From Phascolarctobacterium sp. (GTDB lineage: Bacteria > Bacillota > Negativicutes > Acidaminococcales > Acidaminococcaceae): 64,000 nt of DNA. The stretch is taken from NCBI GenBank assembly GCA_017623055.1, contig JAGAPX010000005.1, positions 1 through 64,000 of the forward strand, in the 5' to 3' direction. Both the position numbers and the translations under genes were made by a program. Within the stretch, counting starts at the first letter, position 1. Each line of letters starts with the position of its first letter. The notes under the pieces were generated by a model that was not told where the DNA came from, did not search any database, and saw only the letters and a list, made by a program, of their open reading frames with translations. Below, one piece after another: positions 38,134 to 62,809 of the stretch.

Positions 38134-40059
38134 TCACCAATCCTCATAATAATTATTTTTTCTCTTCTTTTTAGGCAGAGTTTTTTTAGGTTGCTGCATT
38201 GGAATATCAGCAACAGCAATTCCTCTTGCTTGCTTAATCCTGCGGTCAATAGCATCTAAGTTGGCAGACAATGCTCTAAAAGCTGCCATTGCGTAGTTTC
38301 GGCAGTCTAGAGGTTCGTTGCGTTCGTGTCCGGGGATTTTTTCCCATGCCCAAGGATTTTTGCGTTCAGTTTTGTAAACGAGCCGTTCTGATAAGAGTCC
38401 TTGAAAATATGTAGCTCCATAATCATCACGTTTTGGAAAATGACAATACTTCGGACCAGGCGTTTGGACTCGCAAGTTATCCATAATAATCTGCTTTCCT
38501 GAGTCTACGCCAAGTTTGTACCACCAACAGTCACCTATGTTTCTGCCGTGTATAAATATTTTTTGTTTCTTAGGCGGTGCGGTGTAAGGAATATCAAGGC
38601 CAGCATACCCTTTGATAGCAAAAACTTTCTTTCCTATCCTGTCACGGCATTGTTCACGCACGTTCTGCGTAAAGTGACCGCCTTCGTCGCAAAATGAAAG
38701 CGATACCTTAAGGCCGATATCATCAGAAAAATGAAAAACTCTATCAAAGACTTGCTCGTCAAGTTTTCTCCACACTGCCGGATCGTCAGGTCTCCCCATA
38801 ACGATAGATTTCTCAATGCCCCAAGTTTCCCCGAAATGTCCGTGGCCAACTACTTCGTATTCCATACGGTCGTCTTGCGTATCGATACCAGCAGTTAGAA
38901 CGAGAACTCCATCGGGGAGTTCAGCTTGATAATCTTCACGTCGTGCAAGCAGGCTATCTTCGTCTTGAATATCGCCTCGGTCTTCCCAAAGTTCACCGAA
39001 AGCTGTATTGTAGACAACTTGCAATTTTTTTGAATTGCCTTTTGCATACAAGAATTTAAGGATAATGCCTTTCCACGTTGCCCATTTACTAACGAAAGCA
39101 TTGAGCCAAAATGAACGTACACCGTGTTCAAGTGCAATCGGATTATCAGCTTCCCATCTTGCAGGTTGTTTTTTCATTTCGCTTTCGGTAGAAATGTAAC
39201 CACAACTTGGGCAATGGTATGTGATGTTATACACCTTATAGGTTTTCTTGCCAGCAACAATGATTTCTTCATAGTCAAATCTAATGTCGCTGAATTTGAT
39301 TTCGTGGTATTTGCCACAACCAGGACAACGACTTTTCCAACGTTCTTGTGTGCCTTCGTAATATGAAGATTCTATTGCACTCGCACCTTTTATGGTTGGA
39401 GTAGAAACTTCTATTGCTTTGGCATTGTAGAACGTGGTTTGTCTGGCCATAGCCAACTCCCAAGGGTCACCTTCATTACCTGCAGATAATGCCCAACGGT
39501 CACGTTCATCACCGAAAACATATTTAATAGGCTTGGAAGCTAATGCGTGTGCTTCAGTAGAGCCACACATTGTAAGTATGCCGCCTGGATATGTTTTCTG
39601 AAGAATTGTGTTACCGCTATCTCGGCTTTTTGGTGAGGCAACTTTTCGCCTTAAAGTGGGACTGTCACGAATCATCGGAGCTATACGGAGTTTTGAGTAT
39701 TCCTTGGCATCTATTGTGGTTGGGTGAATAAAAAGAATTGAGCCGGGGTCTTGGTCTATGATGTAACCTATACCGTTGTTAATGAATTCTGATTTACCAA
39801 CTTGCGATGCTGCGACCAAGATTATTCGTCGTACTCTTGGGTCTGTAAATGAATTCATTGGCTCAACCAAATACGGAGTTCTACTGTTTCGCCATGGTCC
39901 AGGTTCGGCACTACTTTCTGATGAAAGCCTCCGATACTTTTCTGCCCATTCCGAAACAGTCAAATTGTCTGGCGGTTTGAGCCCTGCAACAATACGTTCA
40001 ATCGTCTTGTTAAGATTGGCGAGTTGAACTTTAGAGGGAGGATTATTCTTCTTCGTCAT
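38134..40059 (-). CDS. Terminase large subunit, lambda gpA (GpA) family
   Basis: A 641-aa packaging motor. The N-terminal ATPase region has VAASQVGKSEFINNG (Walker-A-like) and the LFIHPTTIDAKEYSK block. A zinc-knuckle-like RCPGCGKYHEI and CPSCGY follow. The nuclease domain carries GIDTQDDRMEYEV, where GxDxQ supplies the metal-binding Asp. The C-terminal tail is basic. It overlaps the small-subunit gene by 17 bp. GpA-type terminases normally act at cos sites. Confidence 0.94.
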   Translation of the reverse strand: MTKKNNPPSKVQLANLNKTIERIVAGLKPPDNLTVSEWAEKYRRLSSESSAEPGPWRNSRTPYLVEPMNSFTDPRVRRIILVAASQVGKSEFINNGIGYIIDQDPGSILFIHPTTIDAKEYSKLRIAPMIRDSPTLRRKVASPKSRDSGNTILQKTYPGGILTMCGSTEAHALASKPIKYVFGDERDRWALSAGNEGDPWELAMARQTTFYNAKAIEVSTPTIKGASAIESSYYEGTQERWKSRCPGCGKYHEIKFSDIRFDYEEIIVAGKKTYKVYNITYHCPSCGYISTESEMKKQPARWEADNPIALEHGVRSFWLNAFVSKWATWKGIILKFLYAKGNSKKLQVVYNTAFGELWEDRGDIQDEDSLLARREDYQAELPDGVLVLTAGIDTQDDRMEYEVVGHGHFGETWGIEKSIVMGRPDDPAVWRKLDEQVFDRVFHFSDDIGLKVSLSFCDEGGHFTQNVREQCRDRIGKKVFAIKGYAGLDIPYTAPPKKQKIFIHGRNIGDCWWYKLGVDSGKQIIMDNLRVQTPGPKYCHFPKRDDYGATYFQGLLSERLVYKTERKNPWAWEKIPGHERNEPLDCRNYAMAAFRALSANLDAIDRRIKQARGIAVADIPMQQPKKTLPKKKRKNNYYEDW

Positions 40060-40597
40060 TACTCATACTGCTTTCCCAATTTTGACGTTCTCGCACACGT
40101 TCTGCGTATTTTCCAGGGTCATACTTGTAATGGCTCATTTCCTCCATTATTTTGTAGACTTCCGACCTAAGAATTTCAGCTACTTTAGCTGGATTATCGA
40201 CTTCGGCCACATCAACAGCTACTCTGCCAGGCAAAGAAGAAAGACGCTCTCGCATAAAGATAATTAAATCACCCGTAAATGCTTCAACATCTTCGGAACG
40301 GTGCATTTTCCCTTGAAGTTCCTTTGCTTCAAGTACCGCCTTGATAGCTTTTGCTTTTTTTAGCGATACTTCGGCTTCGGCTCTGTCTTCATCTGTTTTT
40401 GTAGGCTTTGATTTTTGGTTTGCACCAGCAATAAAAGCTTGAACAGACTTGCAAAGCAGGAAACAGCCAGTCGATACCTTTTCCAACACACCATCTTCGG
40501 CAAGTTGACGAACACGTCTGCCAGTTATACCCAAAACACAGGCTAATTCACTCGTATTAACTTCTGTTTCAAGCGTAATCTTGTCTTGCTTTGCCAT
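40043..40597 (-). CDS. Terminase small subunit (Nu1-like)
   Basis: A 184-aa DNA-packaging protein. The N-terminal winged HTH (TSELACVLGITGRRVRQLAEDG, shown as ELACVLGITGRRVRQLAE) recognises packaging DNA. A central Lys/Glu coiled-coil (AEVSLKKAKAIKAVLEAKEL) precedes a C-terminal helical part. The family is Nu1-type. AAAAGGAG precedes the ATG. It partners the GpA-type large subunit. Confidence 0.88.
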   Translation of the reverse strand: MAKQDKITLETEVNTSELACVLGITGRRVRQLAEDGVLEKVSTGCFLLCKSVQAFIAGANQKSKPTKTDEDRAEAEVSLKKAKAIKAVLEAKELQGKMHRSEDVEAFTGDLIIFMRERLSSLPGRVAVDVAEVDNPAKVAEILRSEVYKIMEEMSHYKYDPGKYAERVRERQNWESSMSNDEEE

Positions 40598-40864
40598 AAA
40601 TTATTACTCCTTTTTATATTAAAAAACTGTGAAAGGTGGGAACGGAAATGCCCCGATTTCACATTACTAACTGAACGAAATTTGGGGTCGTGCGAGCCTC
40701 ACGTAAAGGGGTGGGGGTTTTACAGTACCTAAAGACAATAAAACACGTTCACTGGCTAAGCTGGTCGCCTCCCACAGCTTAGTTTAGGCTTTGCGCAATA
40801 GAAACCCCGTCCCCGAAAGTCACCGCCTTAGAAACGGCTTCTTTCGAGCAACGGGTTTTGTCAT
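40598..40864. other. Non-coding region upstream of terS; candidate cos/packaging site
   Basis: A 267-bp gene-free stretch, the longest in the late region except for the DGR. It contains G/C-rich runs and an 8-bp inverted repeat CTAAGCTG/CAGCTTAG (40756-40763, 40775-40782, 11-bp spacer). In phages with Nu1/GpA-type terminases the cos site lies just upstream of the small-subunit gene, so packaging is the likely role. No cleavage site can be assigned by eye. Confidence 0.4.
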
Positions 40865-41386
40865 TTATACATAAGTTAGGATTTCAGCCTTGCTATATGT
40901 TTCGCCTTTGGCCATCATTGCAATAAATTCTTCTTTGGAGAAGTCACTTAATCTGAAGATTTCTTCTGGCTTCATTCCAAGTTGCTTTGATATCTCTGCC
41001 GTTGTCTTACCACTCTCAATGAGTTTTTTGACAATGGCTTTCATCGGTTCCAAAAGGTGTGTGCCTCTTGCTCTGTTGTGGGTAATAGTTCCATACATAT
41101 CTTCGGCTTCGTCGCCATGGGCGACAACTACCACAGGAACTTTACCACCGAGCTTGGTTTTTAACGGCTCACGCCCAGCTACCGTCCAACGATGAAAACC
41201 GTCGATGATTGTGTAATCTGGTCTTACAACGATAGGTAATGTCCAACCGTTGGTTTCAATGGATTGCACTAAAAGCTTTAGGTTTTCTTCGCTAACTTTG
41301 TTAGGGTTGTACGAATTGGCTTTGAGTTTATCGTGGTCTACCCATTGCAGGGAAGAAAGCGGTCCAAACAAATCAATGTTGCTCAT
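40865..41386 (-). CDS. ParB-like nuclease-domain protein, IbrB type
   Basis: A 173-aa ParB/Srx-fold protein. The core is TIIDGFHRWTVAGRE (a variant of the ParB GHRR motif), followed by NRARGTHLLEPMKAI and an HTH-like C-terminus (TAEISKQLGMKPEEIFRL). Its partner upstream is a PAPS-reductase-like protein (41383-42546), overlapping by 4 bp. This IbrA/IbrB-type pair recurs in phages and enterobacterial islands. Its biochemical role is not established. Confidence 0.8.
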   Translation of the reverse strand: MSNIDLFGPLSSLQWVDHDKLKANSYNPNKVSEENLKLLVQSIETNGWTLPIVVRPDYTIIDGFHRWTVAGREPLKTKLGGKVPVVVVAHGDEAEDMYGTITHNRARGTHLLEPMKAIVKKLIESGKTTAEISKQLGMKPEEIFRLSDFSKEEFIAMMAKGETYSKAEILTYV

Positions 41387-42546
41387 TCATTCTCACCACC
41401 TTCCGTGTGGCGGAACTTCTTGGCGTAAGCCGCATAATTTGTATAGACATCTTGATACACCGCACGAAGCGAACGTATCTTAGGGTCGCCTGCAACAAGA
41501 GCGTCATACATTTTACGGTAATCTCTCTGTCGAGCCATTCCGTCCAATTTTTGGTAAGCACGTCTGTATTGTGCTGCAACGTATTGAGTTGTCGGATTAG
41601 TAAAGTGTTTTGCGTGGTCTACAAAAAGCATTCTGCGCAACAGTTCTTTATAATCTTTCTTTTCGTAGTCCTCGTTCTTACGCCTTACCTTAGAACTACG
41701 CTTGTACCATTCGCTATCCCAATAAAGCATTACAAGGTAAGCATTCGGCTCCCTGCGTTCGATGCGACTCCACAAATCGGGATTGGTTTCAGCTACATGC
41801 TTTAAGCCACGTAAGCTATCTGCACCGAAGAAGTTGGATATGCGGAGTGATCGTCTGCTTTCGCCAGCTTGGTACATCCAAATATAAGCTTCTGGAATAT
41901 CCAGTTTGTTATCTCGAATATAAAGCCAAACATCTTTGTCTTTCCAATCATAAATTGGGTAGATTGTGTTTGAGCCGGTAATGCCTTTCTTGCCGAGATT
42001 AAGACGACTCATATATTGCAAGCGTTGTACTGACTCTGCAGCTCTAACGCCAGTCAACATAATTCCGTCTTTTGTTGTTCTAAGTAGGAAGCTTTGGTAA
42101 TTTTCTTTACCGATGCCCAAAAGGTAAGGGCTGTTCATAATGGCGAACGGTGGTGGCTTGCGTACCCAAATATTTTCTTTTCCGGGTTCCCAAGTAATCC
42201 ACGTTTCGCTATTCTGCAGATGATTAAAACAGGAAACTTGTTTTAAGGGGAGGCAATACCATAGAAAATCTTTGCAACCAGCAAGCAGAAATTTCTTGCG
42301 CCAGTCAAGCATAGAATCAATGCAACAATCATAAATGGCTTCTTCGTCAACAAAGATTAAAGTCAACTGTTTAGGATTTATTTCGCCTTTCCGTATAAGT
42401 TGATAAACGATGTTGGCCATACAGATTGAGTCTTTGCCACCCGATAAGCTCATATACACTGGCAAGCCGTTAGAAAATACATTTTTAATTCGCAGTATCG
42501 CAGCTTCGACAACCGTCATACTGCTTTGCTTACGAATTACAGCCAT
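41383..42546 (-). CDS. PAPS-reductase-like ATP pyrophosphatase, IbrA/DUF3440 type
   Basis: A 387-aa adenine-nucleotide alpha-hydrolase. The PP-loop is YMSLSGGKDSICMAN (about residues 31-45). IYPIYDWKDKDVWLYI is the second conserved block, followed by a long basic C-terminal region characteristic of the IbrA/DUF3440 group. Such enzymes adenylate or sulfurate substrates; DndC is a DNA-modifying relative. The substrate here is unknown. It is the second PAPS-reductase-like gene in this cassette and overlaps both ParB-like neighbours. Confidence 0.85.
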   Translation of the reverse strand: MAVIRKQSSMTVVEAAILRIKNVFSNGLPVYMSLSGGKDSICMANIVYQLIRKGEINPKQLTLIFVDEEAIYDCCIDSMLDWRKKFLLAGCKDFLWYCLPLKQVSCFNHLQNSETWITWEPGKENIWVRKPPPFAIMNSPYLLGIGKENYQSFLLRTTKDGIMLTGVRAAESVQRLQYMSRLNLGKKGITGSNTIYPIYDWKDKDVWLYIRDNKLDIPEAYIWMYQAGESRRSLRISNFFGADSLRGLKHVAETNPDLWSRIERREPNAYLVMLYWDSEWYKRSSKVRRKNEDYEKKDYKELLRRMLFVDHAKHFTNPTTQYVAAQYRRAYQKLDGMARQRDYRKMYDALVAGDPKIRSLRAVYQDVYTNYAAYAKKFRHTEGGENE

Positions 42547-43169
42547 ATTGTTTCACCACATTTCGGGCAAATTACATAATGGCCTTGAGGAGCGTTTTCT
42601 TTAAGCGGTGCAGGGGAAACTGTGGGGGAGGGTGTTTCATAAGCAGGCTGGGGCAAATCCTGTTGAGGCAAAGCCTGTTTTGCTTCTTGTCTCTCGTAGT
42701 TTTCCCTTGCTTCAATGAGGGTTTCTTTTCTTTCCTCGTCAATAATGCCGTAATCGGCCATCATTGTATCAACATTATCTAAATCAGCGGTTAAGGTTGA
42801 TAGTAAGTCGTGGTCATAGCCGGGAACATCTAAGTCGTCACCAAGGTCACGAATGAGGCGGTCGAACGCCGCCATATCATCAACGCCTAAATCGAAGATG
42901 CGATTGTCGGAAAGCATCATTTTCTTTTTCTGCTTATCCGATAAATTATATTTCACATAGCAATATGCTTCTTCAAAACCTGCTTCCTGCATAGCTTTAA
43001 AGAGACCATTGCCAATCCAGATTACGTTATGCTCGTCAATAACAATCGGTTTAAGCTGACCGTTTTGCTTCAAGGAGCGAACGTACTCTTTTATTTGTTT
43101 ATCTGGGTGCATACGCACGTTATCCGGATTTAATTTGAGTTCAGATAGTTTTTTGGTGATAATCTCCAT
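42537..43169 (-). CDS. ParB-like domain protein with C-terminal zinc-knuckle
   Basis: A 210-aa protein. The N-terminal ParB/Srx domain has LSELKLNPDNVRMHPDKQI and VIWIGNGLFKAMQEAGF, where GNGLFKA replaces the usual GHRR. A Pro-rich linker (about 165-195) leads to CPKCGETIW, half of a zinc ribbon. It is sandwiched between two PAPS-reductase-like genes, with stop-start overlaps (TAATG). It resembles phage ParB-domain proteins found with DNA-modification genes. Enzymatic activity is unproven. Confidence 0.78.
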   Translation of the reverse strand: MEIITKKLSELKLNPDNVRMHPDKQIKEYVRSLKQNGQLKPIVIDEHNVIWIGNGLFKAMQEAGFEEAYCYVKYNLSDKQKKKMMLSDNRIFDLGVDDMAAFDRLIRDLGDDLDVPGYDHDLLSTLTADLDNVDTMMADYGIIDEERKETLIEARENYERQEAKQALPQQDLPQPAYETPSPTVSPAPLKENAPQGHYVICPKCGETIWL

Positions 43170-43957
43170 TACTTGTCACTTCCTTTCTTTTCGAGGAAGC
43201 AACGAGCACTTTCGATTACATCAGCTGCAGCCACCAAAATACTTGAATCAATTTCATAAACTTCTTCATAACCCTGCTCTAAACTGGACATATACATTCG
43301 AGATGGCCAAGGGTGAGTGCCACACTTGAAGCCGTCTTTCCATTCATAAATAGGCGGTAATGGCAGATTATGATAATGAATATAAGCCAAAATCATTTCG
43401 TGTGGCCAGTCAGCTAATGGAGAGTATCTCACTTCGCCAGTTGACTTTGTAATAATGTTGTTTGTACCAACAAAATTGCCGTCAGCCTTTCTGTGTCCAA
43501 CCAAAATCATATCAAGCTTTTTATCGAAGAAGTATTTTGTAAATGCTGCTCTTTGTACGCCTTGATACCATTTGTTGAGATTTGCACCTTTAGGGAATAA
43601 CATATGCGGACGATCAGCTAACCATTTTAAATCTTGGCCAGTGTTGATTACTTCGCAGTTAGCAGGCTTATTATCCATACACCATTTCAAGAATGCAGGA
43701 TATTCCAAGTCGGTATGTGCAAACATACAATTAGTGATACCAAGATTGGAGCAGATGTCAGCTAAAACAATACTGTCTTTGCCACCGCTCCAACAAAAAG
43801 CGATATTTTTACCTTTGGTAATTTTCTTAATGGCTTTGTTTACAATAGCAACTGCTTCGTCCAGTTCTTCACGAGAAACCAACTCTTCGATACGTTCAAT
43901 AGCTTCAAGCCATTTCGCATTATCGCTCGTTTGTTTTCTACCAAGAATTTTAATCAT
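43169..43957 (-). CDS. PAPS-reductase-family protein (first copy)
   Basis: A 262-aa ATP-pyrophosphatase-fold protein. An N-terminal helical region leads to the PP-loop IAFCWSGGKDSIVLADI (about residues 52-68) and a later LVGHRKADGN plus YSPLADWPHEMILAYI, both typical for PAPS reductase/DndC-like proteins. It is paired with the ParB-like gene 42537-43169, forming the first of two such pairs. Sequence outside the PP-loop differs from the second copy, so they are not simple duplicates. Confidence 0.85.
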   Translation of the reverse strand: MIKILGRKQTSDNAKWLEAIERIEELVSREELDEAVAIVNKAIKKITKGKNIAFCWSGGKDSIVLADICSNLGITNCMFAHTDLEYPAFLKWCMDNKPANCEVINTGQDLKWLADRPHMLFPKGANLNKWYQGVQRAAFTKYFFDKKLDMILVGHRKADGNFVGTNNIITKSTGEVRYSPLADWPHEMILAYIHYHNLPLPPIYEWKDGFKCGTHPWPSRMYMSSLEQGYEEVYEIDSSILVAAADVIESARCFLEKKGSDK

Positions 43958-44952
43958 AATTGCACCGCCTTTCTTTTTTCAATGGTTGCCCAAAGATAAG
44001 CAAAGGCAATGGCACCTACTATGAAGTAGATGCGAACAGAAGCCATCAATGTCCACATTCCCATTACTCCAAGTGGAATAAGGATATGCCAAAAAGCAAT
44101 GAGGCCAATATTGATTAAAAGGCCCATTTTCTTGCCAAAAGCAATATAAATACTGTACATTGAAGAACTCAAAGTAGAAGTACCGATAATGGTAATGAGT
44201 ACCGCTTTAATTAAATTCAGCACCGGTGAAAATTGAACCCAAGCGAGAGCGAAGATAATCAGCATATAGATGCCAAAAAATATGCCACCAAGAGTGAACG
44301 CTTTTTGCACGTCAATTTTCTTTGTGCCATCTTTATTATCTTCGTTGTAGTCCAAAATCTTAAAGAAGTATGGATAGGTAAAAGGACCAGGCAGCAAAAG
44401 AATGGATTTCCAAATACCTTGTGCCATAGGCTCATATTCAAGCCCCATGGAAATAGTATTGAAGTTTCCATGTGAATGAACGAGTGCAGCAATGGTTACA
44501 ATTACCGCAAGTAAGTAAACTACCAACCAACCGAAGCCGTCTGTTAGGACATTGCGTATCATTCCACAACGAAAAAGAATTATAAGAAAAATGATTGCTT
44601 CGGCATAAGCGATAAATGCGCCTGAATCTTCACCAAGAATGGTATCAGAGAAAACAGCTTGCATACCATTCATAGATAGCCAAGCTTGGAATACACACAT
44701 CAAACCGCAAATCCATAACATTATTTTGGAACTGAATACTTCTCTAAGTTTAGGAATTTTAAAAGCAAGGTAGCCAAATAAAATACAAGCTACAGTATTT
44801 CCGAATACCCAAATGGCAGAGGGGACAATACCATAGGTTTGAGTCATTGCTACGCCGTTCATCAGCGAGCCTATTCCTGCCCAAGTAGCACAAATGCTAA
44901 GAGCGTAGTACAGTAATGGATTGTTTTGAAATTTTTCTTTTATCGAAAACAT
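43954..44952 (-). CDS. Polytopic membrane protein at the start of the late operon
   Basis: A 332-aa protein with about ten membrane helices and no signal peptide. Transporter-like features include paired short helices with Gly/Pro breaks (LLLPGPFTYPYFF, TIIGTSTLSSSMYS). I do not recognise a family with confidence. It overlaps the first PAPS-reductase-like gene by 4 bp and has AAAGGAGG before its ATG, so it is part of the same unit. It may move a substrate of the ParB/PAPS-reductase cassette, or alter the envelope. Both are inference. Confidence 0.7.
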   Translation of the reverse strand: MFSIKEKFQNNPLLYYALSICATWAGIGSLMNGVAMTQTYGIVPSAIWVFGNTVACILFGYLAFKIPKLREVFSSKIMLWICGLMCVFQAWLSMNGMQAVFSDTILGEDSGAFIAYAEAIIFLIILFRCGMIRNVLTDGFGWLVVYLLAVIVTIAALVHSHGNFNTISMGLEYEPMAQGIWKSILLLPGPFTYPYFFKILDYNEDNKDGTKKIDVQKAFTLGGIFFGIYMLIIFALAWVQFSPVLNLIKAVLITIIGTSTLSSSMYSIYIAFGKKMGLLINIGLIAFWHILIPLGVMGMWTLMASVRIYFIVGAIAFAYLWATIEKRKAVQL

Positions 44953-45121: not shown

Positions 45122-45192
45122 ATTATAATGATATCTTTATTTTTGCGTAACATCAAGTAACAGAGCGTAACAGTGCGTAACATCACGGAACA
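45122..45192 (-). promoter_or_regulatory. Candidate phage late promoter with 10-bp-phased activator repeats
   Basis: On the minus strand a TATAAT -10 box lies at 45122-45127. From the -35 position outwards lie five copies of a 6-bp element (plus-strand GTAACA at 45147, 45157, 45167, 45177; GGAACA at 45187), repeated every 10 bp exactly. The array begins just after the gene for a sigma-region-4-like regulator and precedes the late genes. This strongly suggests an activator-dependent late promoter. Confidence 0.7.
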
Positions 45193-45196
45193 AGTT

Positions 45197-45586
45197 TTAA
45201 GAATTTAAATACCGGTAACAAATCATTTTTACTGCTTCTTCAGTATTTTTACCACCGATAAACGAAGAAATTTCTCTCCAAGAATAGCCATGTAAATATC
45301 GAAGTCTAAAAATCATTCTTGTTAAATCATCATCGATGTTATTTATAAAGGCTTCGACTCCGACAGAATTTTTTTGAACTTCGAATTTCAAGTAGTTTAT
45401 TCTTGCCTCTAAGTCTGCAAGTTCGATAGCGAGCATTCCAACTTTGTCACCAACTCCGCTACCGTGTGGCATTCCGTCCAACTTTGTTGCTCCGAGCGTT
45501 TTGGCAGAAATGTTTTGATATAGTTCCTGCGCCTTGTGCAGCTTCTGTATCAATTCAAGATGTTTATTCAATTCCGATAAATTCAT
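45197..45586 (-). CDS. Sigma-70-region-4-like phage regulator (DUF1492/ArpU/RinA type)
   Basis: A 129-aa protein. A helical N-terminus is followed by a C-terminal HTH resembling sigma region 4 (RMIFRLRYLHGYSWREISSFIGG). Proteins of this type sit at the end of early operons and switch on late genes. It is the last early gene, and the 10-bp-phased repeat array and late promoter begin only 5 bp downstream, making it the prime candidate activator. AAGGAG precedes its ATG. Confidence 0.78.
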   Translation of the reverse strand: MNLSELNKHLELIQKLHKAQELYQNISAKTLGATKLDGMPHGSGVGDKVGMLAIELADLEARINYLKFEVQKNSVGVEAFINNIDDDLTRMIFRLRYLHGYSWREISSFIGGKNTEEAVKMICYRYLNS

Positions 45587-50335: not shown

Positions 50336-51811
50336 TTAAGATAATGCTTCACTTAACGCCGCACTTTCATCTTTCCATGTTTGGTAGATTTGGTGAGTGC
50401 CGTCTAACAGACTTTTTTCAATTCCGGACGTTTCGTAGCCAAGCAGTTCAAGCCATTTGTACAAGGCTAATAGTTTCCCGTTGGGTTCGTATGAGGGGAA
50501 TGTGGAATTGTGACGGTAATCGGTAGTTTCGATAAAAAGATAATCCTTACTGTCATCAAAAGAATAATAGACAAATTTAGCTAAATCATCATTTGCCAAA
50601 GAGTCCAATGCTCTATAGATATTGATGTTTCTATCACGAGAGTAAACACCTGCATCTTCGAGATTAAATAATTTTGCGATACTTGTTTTGTCACAATACA
50701 TATAGCCAATAGCACTGAATGCAGTTCTGTACAAAAGACCTTGCAATATAGTTTTTTCGTTTTTAGCGGTAACTTTTAAGGCTTCAATAAACTCCTTACG
50801 CATTTCGTATAGCAAAGCGGATTGTTCAAGAACAAAGTCCCATGCTTCTTTGATACGTTTTTCACGTTGAATTTGCTGTTCGGTTTTCTTGGGAGCTTTT
50901 TCAATATGCTTCTTTTTATAAATTCTGAAAGTGCCGTAAATACCAGGCTTGGTATAATAAAGCTTTTCGGAAGATGTTTCGGGAATATATTCTTTGGTTT
51001 TTTCCCATTTAGTCAAATCAATGACTTTGGTAACTTCTTCGTAATGACCACTCCAAATCTCATTGTCTTTAATTTCTTTAGCTTTGAGTTTTTTGAGAAG
51101 TTCTAATGCTTTAGGCAAATTTTTGTTGACAATCTGTTTTTGCAAGGCTTCTTTAAGTGCGTAATTAAAATCTGAAGTGCCAAGTTTTTCAAGCAGTTTA
51201 TTTCTTTGTTTGATATCTTCGATTTTAGCCAGTTCGTCAAAATCAGTTAATGATAATTGGCGTTCAGCCGAGATTGTTTTTAATCTATTTTGGTCCAGCT
51301 CACACATCTTAATTCGTCTACGGACAGTAGTTGTTGAAAAGCCGGATTTACTTGCAATTTCTTCGATGCTAGTGCCGAAGTTTAACAACATTTGAAAACC
51401 TTGCGCTTGTTCATATACGGTTAAGTCGGAGCGTTGCATATTTTCGAGCAACATTGTTGTTACTTGTTCTTCGGGTGTCATATCGACAATGACACAAGGT
51501 ACAACTGTTAGTCCTGCAATCTTGGAAGCTCCCGTTCTTCTGTGGCCGATGATTATTGTATATCCATCTTCATACCACTTTGCATTTATCTTTTCTCTAA
51601 GTTCTTCTGACGGATTTTCGTTATATAATGCAGTGTATTTTAACCATTCCTCTTGTGTCTGAGCGTGACCTTTTACAACGGTCAAATTCTGCAATACACC
51701 TTTTGCCTTAATACTGTCGGCAAGCTCGGTCAAATCACCAAGCTCTTTGCGAGGGTTGTCGGGGTGAGGATATAAACAGTCTATTGGTAAATAAACTAAA
51801 TTAGTTGTCAT
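50336..51811 (-). CDS. ParB/RepB-like phage protein
   Basis: A 491-aa protein. The N-terminal ParB domain (CLYPHPDNPRKELGDLTELADSI, partial) has GYTIIIGHRRTGASKIAGL, including the GHRR nucleotide-binding motif, and an HTH (SIEEIASKSGFSTTTVRRRI). The long C-terminal part is helical and unassigned. Phage proteins of this type are implicated in replication or modulation of transcription, not partition. ATG 51811 has AAGGAG about 10 bp upstream. Confidence 0.85.
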   Translation of the reverse strand: MTTNLVYLPIDCLYPHPDNPRKELGDLTELADSIKAKGVLQNLTVVKGHAQTQEEWLKYTALYNENPSEELREKINAKWYEDGYTIIIGHRRTGASKIAGLTVVPCVIVDMTPEEQVTTMLLENMQRSDLTVYEQAQGFQMLLNFGTSIEEIASKSGFSTTTVRRRIKMCELDQNRLKTISAERQLSLTDFDELAKIEDIKQRNKLLEKLGTSDFNYALKEALQKQIVNKNLPKALELLKKLKAKEIKDNEIWSGHYEEVTKVIDLTKWEKTKEYIPETSSEKLYYTKPGIYGTFRIYKKKHIEKAPKKTEQQIQREKRIKEAWDFVLEQSALLYEMRKEFIEALKVTAKNEKTILQGLLYRTAFSAIGYMYCDKTSIAKLFNLEDAGVYSRDRNINIYRALDSLANDDLAKFVYYSFDDSKDYLFIETTDYRHNSTFPSYEPNGKLLALYKWLELLGYETSGIEKSLLDGTHQIYQTWKDESAALSEALS

Positions 51812-51831
51812 AATTTCTCTGCTCCTTTCAA

Positions 51832-52689
51832 TCAAAATAGTGTTAGTTGCGAGGTGGTTTCAGCTATCTTGATATCATTATTATCTAAAGGTGTTTCTAT
51901 AATTGGTTCTTGAGGTTTGGTGAGTGGGGGAGACGTGCTTTTAAACAATAAATCCATTTGCGAAGCAAATCTCCTGCCTTGCCAAATGGGTGAATTGTAG
52001 AATGGTGTGTACCAAACATTAGGATTGTCGTGTGGGAGAAGTCCTCTTGCATCGAAGCTTGTTGATGGATTTGTCAAAGTGTTTTGAATGACAACGTAGC
52101 CAGGGCAACCCATCAGCGAAAGCTGAATGTAACACATCAGACCAGCGACCGTATCAATATCCTGCGCTACGAAAAGTACCGAGGTTTGAAAGTTTATGCC
52201 ACGTTCTTTACATTCGTTTGCGTAGGCAATTAGTAAAGCGCCTGCACCGCAAGCTGGGTCATTAACAGATACCCAGCCTTGCTTTGCAATGCGTTCTTCG
52301 ATGTTGTTATCAATGGTCATAGCGGACATTGCCCGGCAGACGGAGTAAGGAGTAAAGAATTGTCCTGCCCATTCGTTGCCAAGTCCAAGTGCCATAAAAA
52401 GCTCTCCCAAGAAATCTTGGTCGGGATATTCTTCCATGCTTTGAGCAACTTCTGCCAAAATTTCAGCAAAGGTGGTTAATTCTTGAACACTATATTTTGA
52501 GGCACACCGTTCATACATTTTTTCACGCTCTGCAGAGTGAGGATTTTGCAATACATTAGAAATGCTCACTGCTGCCATTGTGATAAAATCCTGCCATATA
52601 TTCCAAAGGGAAAATCTGCCAGTCATACCATTAAGCAGTTTAACGATATGTGATTGGTGAGCATTTCGTGTTCTTATCACCTTTGCCAT
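51832..52689 (-). CDS. N-6 DNA methylase-like protein without a clear catalytic motif IV
   Basis: A 285-aa protein of the HsdM/type-I methylase fold. It has the FTP segment (GQFFTPYSVCRAM) and the AdoMet motif I VNDPACGAGALLIAY. The catalytic (D/N)PP(Y/F) expected after the NTLTNP segment is not evident; the region reads VWYTPFYNSPIW. It may therefore be catalytically altered, or use a divergent motif. Small versions occur in many phages next to ParB-like genes, as here. Confidence 0.75.
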   Translation of the reverse strand: MAKVIRTRNAHQSHIVKLLNGMTGRFSLWNIWQDFITMAAVSISNVLQNPHSAEREKMYERCASKYSVQELTTFAEILAEVAQSMEEYPDQDFLGELFMALGLGNEWAGQFFTPYSVCRAMSAMTIDNNIEERIAKQGWVSVNDPACGAGALLIAYANECKERGINFQTSVLFVAQDIDTVAGLMCYIQLSLMGCPGYVVIQNTLTNPSTSFDARGLLPHDNPNVWYTPFYNSPIWQGRRFASQMDLLFKSTSPPLTKPQEPIIETPLDNNDIKIAETTSQLTLF

Positions 52690-61246: not shown

Positions 61247-62809
61247 ATGGCAAAGAGAACATTACCTAAGAAAATTAAAAAGGGTGGTATTGCCGTTATT
61301 TATGCACGTTACTCTTCTCACAACCAAAGAGATGTGAGCATTGAGCAACAAGTAGAAGCGTGCATGAAATACGCTAAAGACTCTGGACTGAACGTAGTAG
61401 ACACCTACGCTGATAGAGCTGTTACTGGACGATCAGACCGCAGGCCAAAATTCCAAAAAATGATGCGAGATGCTGAGTCTGGAAAATTTGAGTTTGTAAT
61501 TTCGTGGAAGTCTAACCGTATTGGTCGTAATATGCTCCAAGCTATGAATAACGAAGCGAGGCTTGCTGATTGCGGAGTACGTGCAGTTTTCGTAGAAGAA
61601 GACTTCGAGGATAATGCTGCAGGTCGCTTTGCCTTACGTTCTATGATGAACGTCAATCAATTCTATTCAGAGAATATGGCCGAGGACATTCAACGTGGTT
61701 TAGATGATAATGCTTCCAAGTGCCTTGTGAACGGGAACGGTGGCTTCGGCTTCAAGCGTGGGGAAGATGGTCGCTATGCATTGGATTCTCCCAAAGATGC
61801 AATAGTACGTGAAATCTTTGAGCGTGTTGCTAAAAGAGAGCCAATCGTGGATATTATGAACAGCCTTAACGAGCGTGGGATTAAAACATCTAGAGGAGGT
61901 AAGTGGAACCGTAGCAGCTTCCAAAAGATGTTGATAAATGAACGCTATCGTGGCGTGTACATTTATAAAGACCACTATATAGAAGGTGGCGTTCCGAGAA
62001 TTGTTAGTGATGATATTTTCTACAGGGTGCAGGAGGTAGTTAATATGAATAAACAAGTTAAGACCAAAAGACGCAGAACTGAAAACGGTACTTATCTATT
62101 AACTGGCAAATTATTCTGCGGTCATTGCAAATCTCATATGACTGGTATCTCCGGTACAAGTGGCCGTGGGTATCTTCATTTCTACTATACCTGCAGGAAG
62201 AGAAGAGTGGAAAAAGCCTGTAAAAAACGAAACGTTCAAAGAGATTATATTGAAAGGATTGTTGCGAAAGCCATTAAAGATTATTGCTTGAATGATGAAA
62301 TACTGGAAGTTATTGCTGATCAGACAGTAGAATATAACAAGAAGCAACTTCAAAATAATGAGTTGATTTTACTTGAGCAAGAACTTGCAAGTGTTAATAC
62401 AGGATTGCAAAATTTATTGAGAGCAATAGAAGCTGGCATCTTTAGCGATACAACAAGACAACGCATGCTTGATTTAGAAAAGCAAAAGGCTTCCCTTGAA
62501 TGTAAAATAGAAGAATTCAAATTTAATGTTGTACCGATAGATAGGGAAGATTTGATAGCGGGCTTAGCAATGTTCCGAGACGGTGACATTGAAGATAAAC
62601 GATTCCAAGCAGCGTTATTTGACACGTTTCTTCTAGCAGTGTATATTTATGATAACAACCTAAAACTGGTATTCACTTTCACCGGTGCGAACAATTCCAT
62701 TGAAGTTCCGTTAGAGGAAGTGGAAGACGCAGAAAGTGATGTTATTTTAGAAATTAAAGATGGGGTGCTTGTTCGTTCAAGCTCTGCTAATGTCCACCAC
62801 AAAAAATAA
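61247..62809 (+). CDS. Large serine recombinase (phage integrase)
   Basis: A 520-aa serine integrase. The N-terminal resolvase domain has the nucleophile Ser in IYARYSSHNQRDVSIEQQ and later RSDRRPKFQKMM and WKSNRIGRN. A recombinase domain follows (about 155-280), then a zinc-ribbon (LFCGHCKSHM...YTCRKRR) and a coiled-coil C-terminal part. It inserts and excises the prophage at short att sites. It is next to the host pgi gene, so the right prophage end should be near 62,810-62,860. Confidence 0.95.
   Translation: MAKRTLPKKIKKGGIAVIYARYSSHNQRDVSIEQQVEACMKYAKDSGLNVVDTYADRAVTGRSDRRPKFQKMMRDAESGKFEFVISWKSNRIGRNMLQAMNNEARLADCGVRAVFVEEDFEDNAAGRFALRSMMNVNQFYSENMAEDIQRGLDDNASKCLVNGNGGFGFKRGEDGRYALDSPKDAIVREIFERVAKREPIVDIMNSLNERGIKTSRGGKWNRSSFQKMLINERYRGVYIYKDHYIEGGVPRIVSDDIFYRVQEVVNMNKQVKTKRRRTENGTYLLTGKLFCGHCKSHMTGISGTSGRGYLHFYYTCRKRRVEKACKKRNVQRDYIERIVAKAIKDYCLNDEILEVIADQTVEYNKKQLQNNELILLEQELASVNTGLQNLLRAIEAGIFSDTTRQRMLDLEKQKASLECKIEEFKFNVVPIDREDLIAGLAMFRDGDIEDKRFQAALFDTFLLAVYIYDNNLKLVFTFTGANNSIEVPLEEVEDAESDVILEIKDGVLVRSSSANVHHKK

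Follow-up and report, generated by a model that had tools for sequence, protein, structure and literature searches.

The 64,000-nucleotide stretch of Phascolarctobacterium sp. DNA analyzed here (assembly GCA_017623055.1, contig JAGAPX010000005.1, positions 1 to 64,000 of the forward strand; referred to as the window) carries a cassette of five overlapping genes directly ahead of the terminase genes. The cassette encodes a membrane protein, two PP-loop ATP-pyrophosphatases (PAPSs and PAPSl), and two ParB-like proteins (ParB1 and ParB2). A first-pass annotation had listed the five genes, and all of them were confirmed as minus-strand open reading frames upstream of the genes for the small (TerS) and large (TerL) terminase subunits. 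The cassette and its flanks are as follows.

43954-44952, minus strand: predicted importer of a minimal sodium:solute symporter type (LeuT fold), 332 amino acids, first gene of the cassette
43169-43957, minus strand: PAPSs, short PP-loop ATP-pyrophosphatase, 262 amino acids, PF01507; an optional member
42537-43169, minus strand: ParB1, ParB/Srx-type protein with a C-terminal CPxCG zinc-ribbon-like end, 210 amino acids, phrog_620
41383-42546, minus strand: PAPSl, long PP-loop ATP-pyrophosphatase, IbrA-like, 387 amino acids, PF01507, phrog_2302
40865-41386, minus strand: ParB2, IbrB-like ParB_N domain plus a helix-turn-helix-like region, 173 amino acids, PF02195, phrog_2159
40598-40864, no strand: noncoding gap of 267 bases between the cassette and TerS; judged from its position, the probable packaging (pac/cos) region
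40043-40597, minus strand: TerS, terminase small subunit, phrog_57 (98 bits)
38134-40059, minus strand: TerL, terminase large subunit of the GpA type, PF05876 and PF20454
45197-45586, minus strand: ArpU/RinA-like late transcription regulator upstream of the cassette, phrog_36

Read from the importer gene to ParB2, neighboring genes of the window cassette overlap by 4, 1, 10, and 4 bases. The same genes, in this order and with these short overlaps, are found again in 43 viral contigs or phages holding the membrane protein. Nearly all viral contigs retrieved with the membrane protein encode ParB1, PAPSl, and ParB2 behind it, the overlaps being mostly −4, −10, and −4 to −14, and PAPSs is present in 16 of these loci. 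A broader search through viral contigs and genomes, in which distinct PAPSl sequences were counted, placed the cassette in 220 loci from phages and prophages of several phyla, with the core order importer, optional PAPSs, ParB1, PAPSl, and ParB2. Median ratios of nonsynonymous to synonymous substitutions (dN/dS) of 0.07 to 0.12 for every cassette member indicate that each of them is under purifying selection. The Faecalibacterium phages FP_Taranis and Pioen carry the membrane protein (46% identical), ParB, IbrA-like, and IbrB-like genes, followed by the terminase; the cassette of MT836198 also includes a PAPSs gene. Hosts in the genome records were mostly Clostridia, with some Selenomonadaceae, Streptomyces, and one Gemmatimonadetes bin, and ParB2-type matches were found in 5 of 398 genomes of the phylum, a prevalence as expected for prophages. 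Solitary PAPSs genes without a cassette were seen in two Atribacteria loci (L319 and L324). Whether the genes are conserved together had been the check proposed by the first-pass annotation; with the same order and overlaps across 220 distinct loci, they form a conserved operon, and a scattered coincidence was rejected. Tandem duplication of one gene pair was rejected as well: ParB1 and ParB2 are distinct families with only the N-terminal motif region in common, and PAPSs is an optional insertion. The PAPSl and PAPSs families are related to each other (hhalign E value of 1e-9). What had been described as an unusual double pair is a core with a single PP-loop enzyme and two ParB proteins that differ from each other, a makeup that is widespread in phages.

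The membrane protein had no match in Pfam, PHROG, or NCBIfam, and a sequence search of the Protein Data Bank with its profile returned nothing. Its AlphaFold model (predicted local distance difference test [pLDDT] score of 84) contains broken helices at residues 13-24/27-40 and 173-185/194-205, which are those of the LeuT fold. The best fold matches were transporters of the sodium:solute symporter (SSS) family, namely, CHT1 (Z score of 24.6 over 306 of the 332 residues), the urea transporter DUR3, NIS, and SMCT1, whereas Nramp, APC, and auxin carriers ranked lower, with Z scores of about 21. An hhalign comparison of the membrane protein family with the full-length phage SSS family yielded an E value of 5e-8 at a probability of 95% over 208 columns. 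Judged from the modeled fold and the profile comparison, the first gene, which had already been taken for that of a transporter, encodes a minimal sodium:solute symporter, which would be a divergent and trimmed relative below the detection of Pfam SSF. It shares with the SSS family (PF00474) the fold, co-linear motifs, and the profile match, but it has only 332 amino acids and the 10 core helices, is phage borne, and is coupled to PP-loop and ParB genes.

Loci without the minimal importer usually carry a full-length SSS symporter gene (PF00474) directly upstream. Other loci have instead a NitT/TauT-type ATP-binding cassette (ABC) permease and an SsuA/TauA-type binding lipoprotein. No ATPase gene was seen in the vicinity, so that these phage-borne permease and binding protein genes (L160:3538-5320, L164:3501-5287, and L174:2788-4490) would depend on a host ATPase. 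An importer was found in 195 of 203 judgeable loci (88 of the minimal SSS type, 100 of the full-length SSS type, and 7 of the ABC type; none in 8), and a further 17 loci were unreadable. Excluding the loci that had been fetched by the importer itself left 169 of 177 with an importer (62 minimal SSS, 100 full-length SSS, and 7 ABC; none in 8; 15 unreadable). In a FastTree phylogeny of PAPSl, about 11 changes of importer type were counted, compared to 62 to 76 for shuffled labels; the importer was therefore inherited with the cassette and yet repeatedly replaced, ABC type included. This retention of an importer of exchanged kind constitutes the strongest evidence that solute uptake belongs to the function of the cassette. 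Two actinobacterial-type contigs carry the SSS gene behind ParB2 and before TerL. Three Bacteroidetes-like contigs encode an extra protein of about 200 amino acids between the SSS importer and the ATPase genes (L194:4841-5449, L187:5019-5618, and L201:5598-6215). The L194 protein has a weak porin match, and the extra protein is perhaps the outer-membrane part of the uptake route.

Both PP-loop proteins match PF01507 (43.2 bits for PAPSs and 40.8 bits for PAPSl; cutoff, 22.5), and the GKD of the SGGKDS loop is invariant in both families. PAPSl matches phrog_2302 with 278 bits and is 57% identical to its MT836198 counterpart and 28% identical to IbrA of Escherichia phage PhiR5_2. The folds nearest to its AlphaFold model (pLDDT of 86) are APS/PAPS reductase (APS reductase 4bwv, Z score of 14.5 over 179 residues), CysD ATP sulfurylase (Z score of 13.9), and FAD synthase, followed by NadE, GuaA, and TilS; in the VIA-align comparison, families missing from its list do not count as excluded, and residues of about 255 to 387 of PAPSl were barely tested. 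By loop and modeled fold, both proteins are members of the PP-loop (N-type) ATP pyrophosphatase superfamily. An identity as PAPS or APS reductase is not supported: both proteins scored about 18 bits with the CysH model TIGR00434 (cutoff, 165), and no cysteine was invariant among 77 PAPSl or 31 PAPSs sequences, the best being C98 in 73 of the 77. CysD and FAD synthase adenylate their substrates without cysteine chemistry.

These data bear on the sulfur (Dnd-type) modification of phage DNA that the first-pass annotation had suggested, an explanation in which a DndC-like enzyme would take sulfur from a host desulfurase, ParB would nick or mark the DNA, and the importer would bring in a sulfur compound, e.g., a sulfonate. 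The placement of the PP-loop enzymes in the PAPS reductase superfamily, weak matches to DndC and BrxP, some fold matches to tRNA thiolases and LarE, and the affiliation of the ABC binding proteins with the SsuA/TauA (sulfonate/taurine) family, though under the subfamily cutoff, are all consistent with this explanation. However, the DndC score was 23.0 bits against a cutoff of 290.4 (TIGR03183), the PADLOC DndC match (E value of 3.5e-8) covered only 57 residues, and DndC requires conserved cysteines as iron-sulfur ligands, whereas neither PP-loop family has an invariant one. No DndD over the cutoff was found in the genome; DndE gave no match, but the control genomes gave none either. The cassette resembles the Dnd and Ssp systems (DndC/SspD) in a PAPS reductase superfamily ATPase alongside putative DNA-recognizing partners but differs from them in its cysteines, in the DndD result, and in its importer and amidotransferase partners (Ssp partners were not searched for). 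In view of the DndC score, the missing invariant cysteines, and a recurrent partner, a glutamine amidotransferase, that stands for nitrogen chemistry, sulfur modification was rejected as the first choice, and we consider it quite improbable.

The class II glutamine amidotransferase gene lies directly behind PAPSs in the otherwise complete cassettes of three Clostridia prophages (L306, L283, and L277) and, counting these, beside PAPSs in six relatives (also L317, L321, and L327); similar genes accompany the Streptomyces and Gemmatimonadetes relatives. An amidotransferase combined with a PP-loop enzyme is the arrangement of asparagine synthetase and of Gat-QueC, which makes nitrogen transfer likelier than sulfur chemistry, at least for PAPSs. 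Together with the lack of invariant cysteines, this partner favors ATP-driven adenylation and a transfer of nitrogen over sulfur chemistry. The window copy, which has no amidotransferase gene, may do the same. A cassette of this kind recalls, in outline, the phage 7-deazaguanine pathway and the host Dpd system. Gat-QueC and DpdA of phage 9g insert dG+ into DNA, and some phages of the same survey encode the preQ0 transporter YhhQ (PMC6884629); DpdB and DndB are ParB-like (PMC12839542). The likeness lies in a PP-loop ATPase paired with an amidotransferase, in a transporter that some phages encode for the precursor, in the ParB-like ATPase of the host system, and in DNA as the target, which for the cassette is presumed. 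In contrast, the cassette has no TGT/DpdA, QueC/D/E, or YhhQ, its transporters are of the SSS or NitT/TauT type, and its amidotransferase is a separate gene in some relatives only. The 7-deazaguanine pathway was considered, but the family scan gave no QueC-type match and the cassette contains no TGT- or YhhQ-like gene. Other partners of related genes were noted in passing. An ectoine synthase-type cupin fused to ParB_N lies beside an IbrA-like gene in Mycobacterium phage Gaia (gp104; L330:7308-8207), in L200 and L327 the linked cupin is a gene of its own, and a PP-loop protein upstream of a homologous terminase (L221:2-2697) lies beside genes that by eye resemble the RAMP type (CRISPR Cas7-like), the scan having covered only the PP-loop gene.

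ParB1 matches phrog_620 with 137 bits and phrog_498, a ParB-DNA methyltransferase family, with 87 bits, and its PF02195 score of 22.8 bits is under the cutoff of 26.3. The cysteines of its C-terminal CxxC end (C201 and C204) are invariant in 18 homologs, and the family mostly has GNGL where GxxR is usual. ParB2 (PF02195, 33.5 bits; phrog_2159, 236 bits) is the most conserved member of the cassette, with 59 to 84% identity across 42 diverse phage homologs and 34% to the most distant one aligned. Its GFHR-type and NRARG motifs are invariant, and it is 38% identical to IbrB of PhiR5_2. A true partition system was rejected, with neither ParB1 nor ParB2 matching HTH_ParB (ParA was not searched for). 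Homology links PAPSl and ParB2 to IbrA and IbrB (phrog_2302/phrog_2159; a COG3969-type PP-loop protein and a ParB protein), and the PAPSl and ParB2 genes adjoin each other; the IbrA/IbrB pair stands alone, whereas the cassette adds the importer, ParB1, often a second PP-loop enzyme, and the placement at the terminase. This homology, the very strongly conserved ParB2 with its helix-turn-helix-like region, and the position at the head of the late genes would fit a regulatory module in which the late genes are switched on by something that the pairs modify or sense, with the importer sensing or supplying the signal. However, a dedicated regulator (ArpU/RinA) is already present upstream of the cassette, and regulation would leave the importer, two ATP-pyrophosphatases, and the amidotransferase unexplained. 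We regard a regulatory role as rather unlikely.

The cassette precedes at least five terminase families (GpA, Terminase_6, Terminase_3, TerL_ATPase/nuclease, and T7-like) and sits between the late regulator and the terminase across them, a recurrence showing that its placement, as had been suspected, is not accidental. The packaging start predicted for Pioen is located between ParB2 (ending at 51396 of 51920) and TerS (starting at 123). Several contigs with homologous TerS and TerL but no cassette were compared at the same slot, which holds a ParB_N-N6/N4-methyltransferase and a C5-methyltransferase in L248, a ParB_N-Amidoligase_2 fusion in L225 to L227, Dam in L244 and L245, and an IbrA/IbrB pair in L218. 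In this small sample, the terminase-side slot tends to hold DNA modification genes. The fusion gene of L226 (6028-7413; Amidoligase_2, 185 bits), which like its equivalents in L225 and L227 lies before the terminase, possibly encodes an unusual modification enzyme. The phage methyltransferases of phrog_498 have a ParB domain like that of ParB1 and occupy the same slot by the same kind of terminase; the cassette has no methyltransferase domain, so that its chemistry must differ. The resemblance of ParB1 to the ParB domain of phrog_498 was counted in favor of DNA modification.

The slot also bears on a metabolic or host-directed role, in which the importer and the PP-loop enzymes would acquire and convert a nutrient or modify host tRNA, the envelope, or a cofactor, with the ParB domains serving as ATPases or as kinases of small molecules. 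ParB/Srx domains include the free-serine kinase SerK (a weak match), the closest solved relatives of the PP-loop proteins are the small-molecule enzymes CysD and FAD synthase, and auxiliary metabolic genes are numerous in phages. Such a role would hardly explain why the cassette sits so tightly and recurrently beside the terminase in different terminase families and phyla, or why DNA methyltransferases replace it in the slot, and the helix-turn-helix of ParB2 suggests DNA; we consider it unlikely.

Of the possible uses, DNA modification fits best, given that DNA methyltransferases or the ParB-amidoligase occupy the slot in phages whose terminases are homologous. The modification idea of the first-pass annotation thus stays plausible, while its sulfur version is unsupported. 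We give about even probability to the reading that the genes constitute a phage DNA modification cassette that takes up its own precursor and works ahead of packaging. It builds on the conserved operon and its position, the predicted importer, the PP-loop and ParB folds, the lack of cysteines for sulfur chemistry, the amidotransferase of some relatives, and the common slot; from these we infer DNA as the substrate, the identity of the solute, amide or amine chemistry in the window copy, and the benefit to the phage. In this model, the SSS-type carrier would bring a small solute into the cell, and the PP-loop enzymes would spend ATP and release pyrophosphate to adenylate the solute or a DNA base, PAPSs being fed with ammonia from glutamine where the amidotransferase is present. 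ParB1 and ParB2 would be the DNA-recognizing, nucleotide-binding partners that place the group on phage DNA. As products of late genes at the packaging site, the proteins would act just before the DNA enters the capsid and leave an anti-restriction mark. More tentatively, and less likely than not, the cassette may represent a kind of DNA hypermodification not described before, used by temperate phages of gut and other bacteria, in which an external small molecule is taken up by a dedicated importer and two adenylating PP-loop enzymes with ParB-type partners attach the molecule, or its nitrogen, to bases at packaging. Several points weigh against DNA modification. No cassette member is a recognized DNA-modifying catalyst (methyltransferase, glycosyltransferase, or TGT), the IbrA/IbrB homologs are reportedly coactivators of gene expression, and we know of no cassette-bearing phage with modified DNA. 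Moreover, the slot comparison comprises few cassette-free relatives, some of which have no modification enzyme there, and the amidotransferase was found in only six loci and not in the window.

Further features of the window lie around the cassette. The ArpU/RinA-like gene recurs at its position upstream of the cassette in many relatives. Just behind it, four imperfect TGTTAC-headed repeats spaced about 13 bases apart (45147-45200, minus strand) are followed by a hairpin near 45101-45069, and together these may form a late-promoter control site. A separate ParB of 499 amino acids with ParB_N and HTH_ParB domains (50336-51835) adjoins an N6 DNA methylase-like gene, the pair spanning 50336-52689 on the minus strand; in Taranis, MT836198, and L026, too, a relative of this ParB is found ahead of the cassette. 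A large serine recombinase gene (61247-62809, plus strand) probably marks the prophage end, and serine integrases are also used by the related Faecalibacterium phages Pioen and Taranis.

IbrA/IbrB-type pairs are already known and annotated. Neither the importer-linked operon nor the importer interchange, the amidotransferase partner, or the slot in common with methyltransferases was found in the papers that were searchable. The cassette proteins of Pioen, a human gut phage that is inducible by heat (PMC11792537), are labeled hypothetical, and others carry labels such as PAPS reductase, ParB partition protein, or host metabolism. Phage "PAPS reductases" of this kind need not be sulfur metabolism genes, which corrects a widespread annotation. 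Hundreds of temperate phages, many of them from gut Clostridia, hold the operon at a fixed place. If the proposed reading is true, they would possess a modification chemistry that relies on importing its building block from the cell's surroundings, and their protection against restriction would depend on the gut environment.

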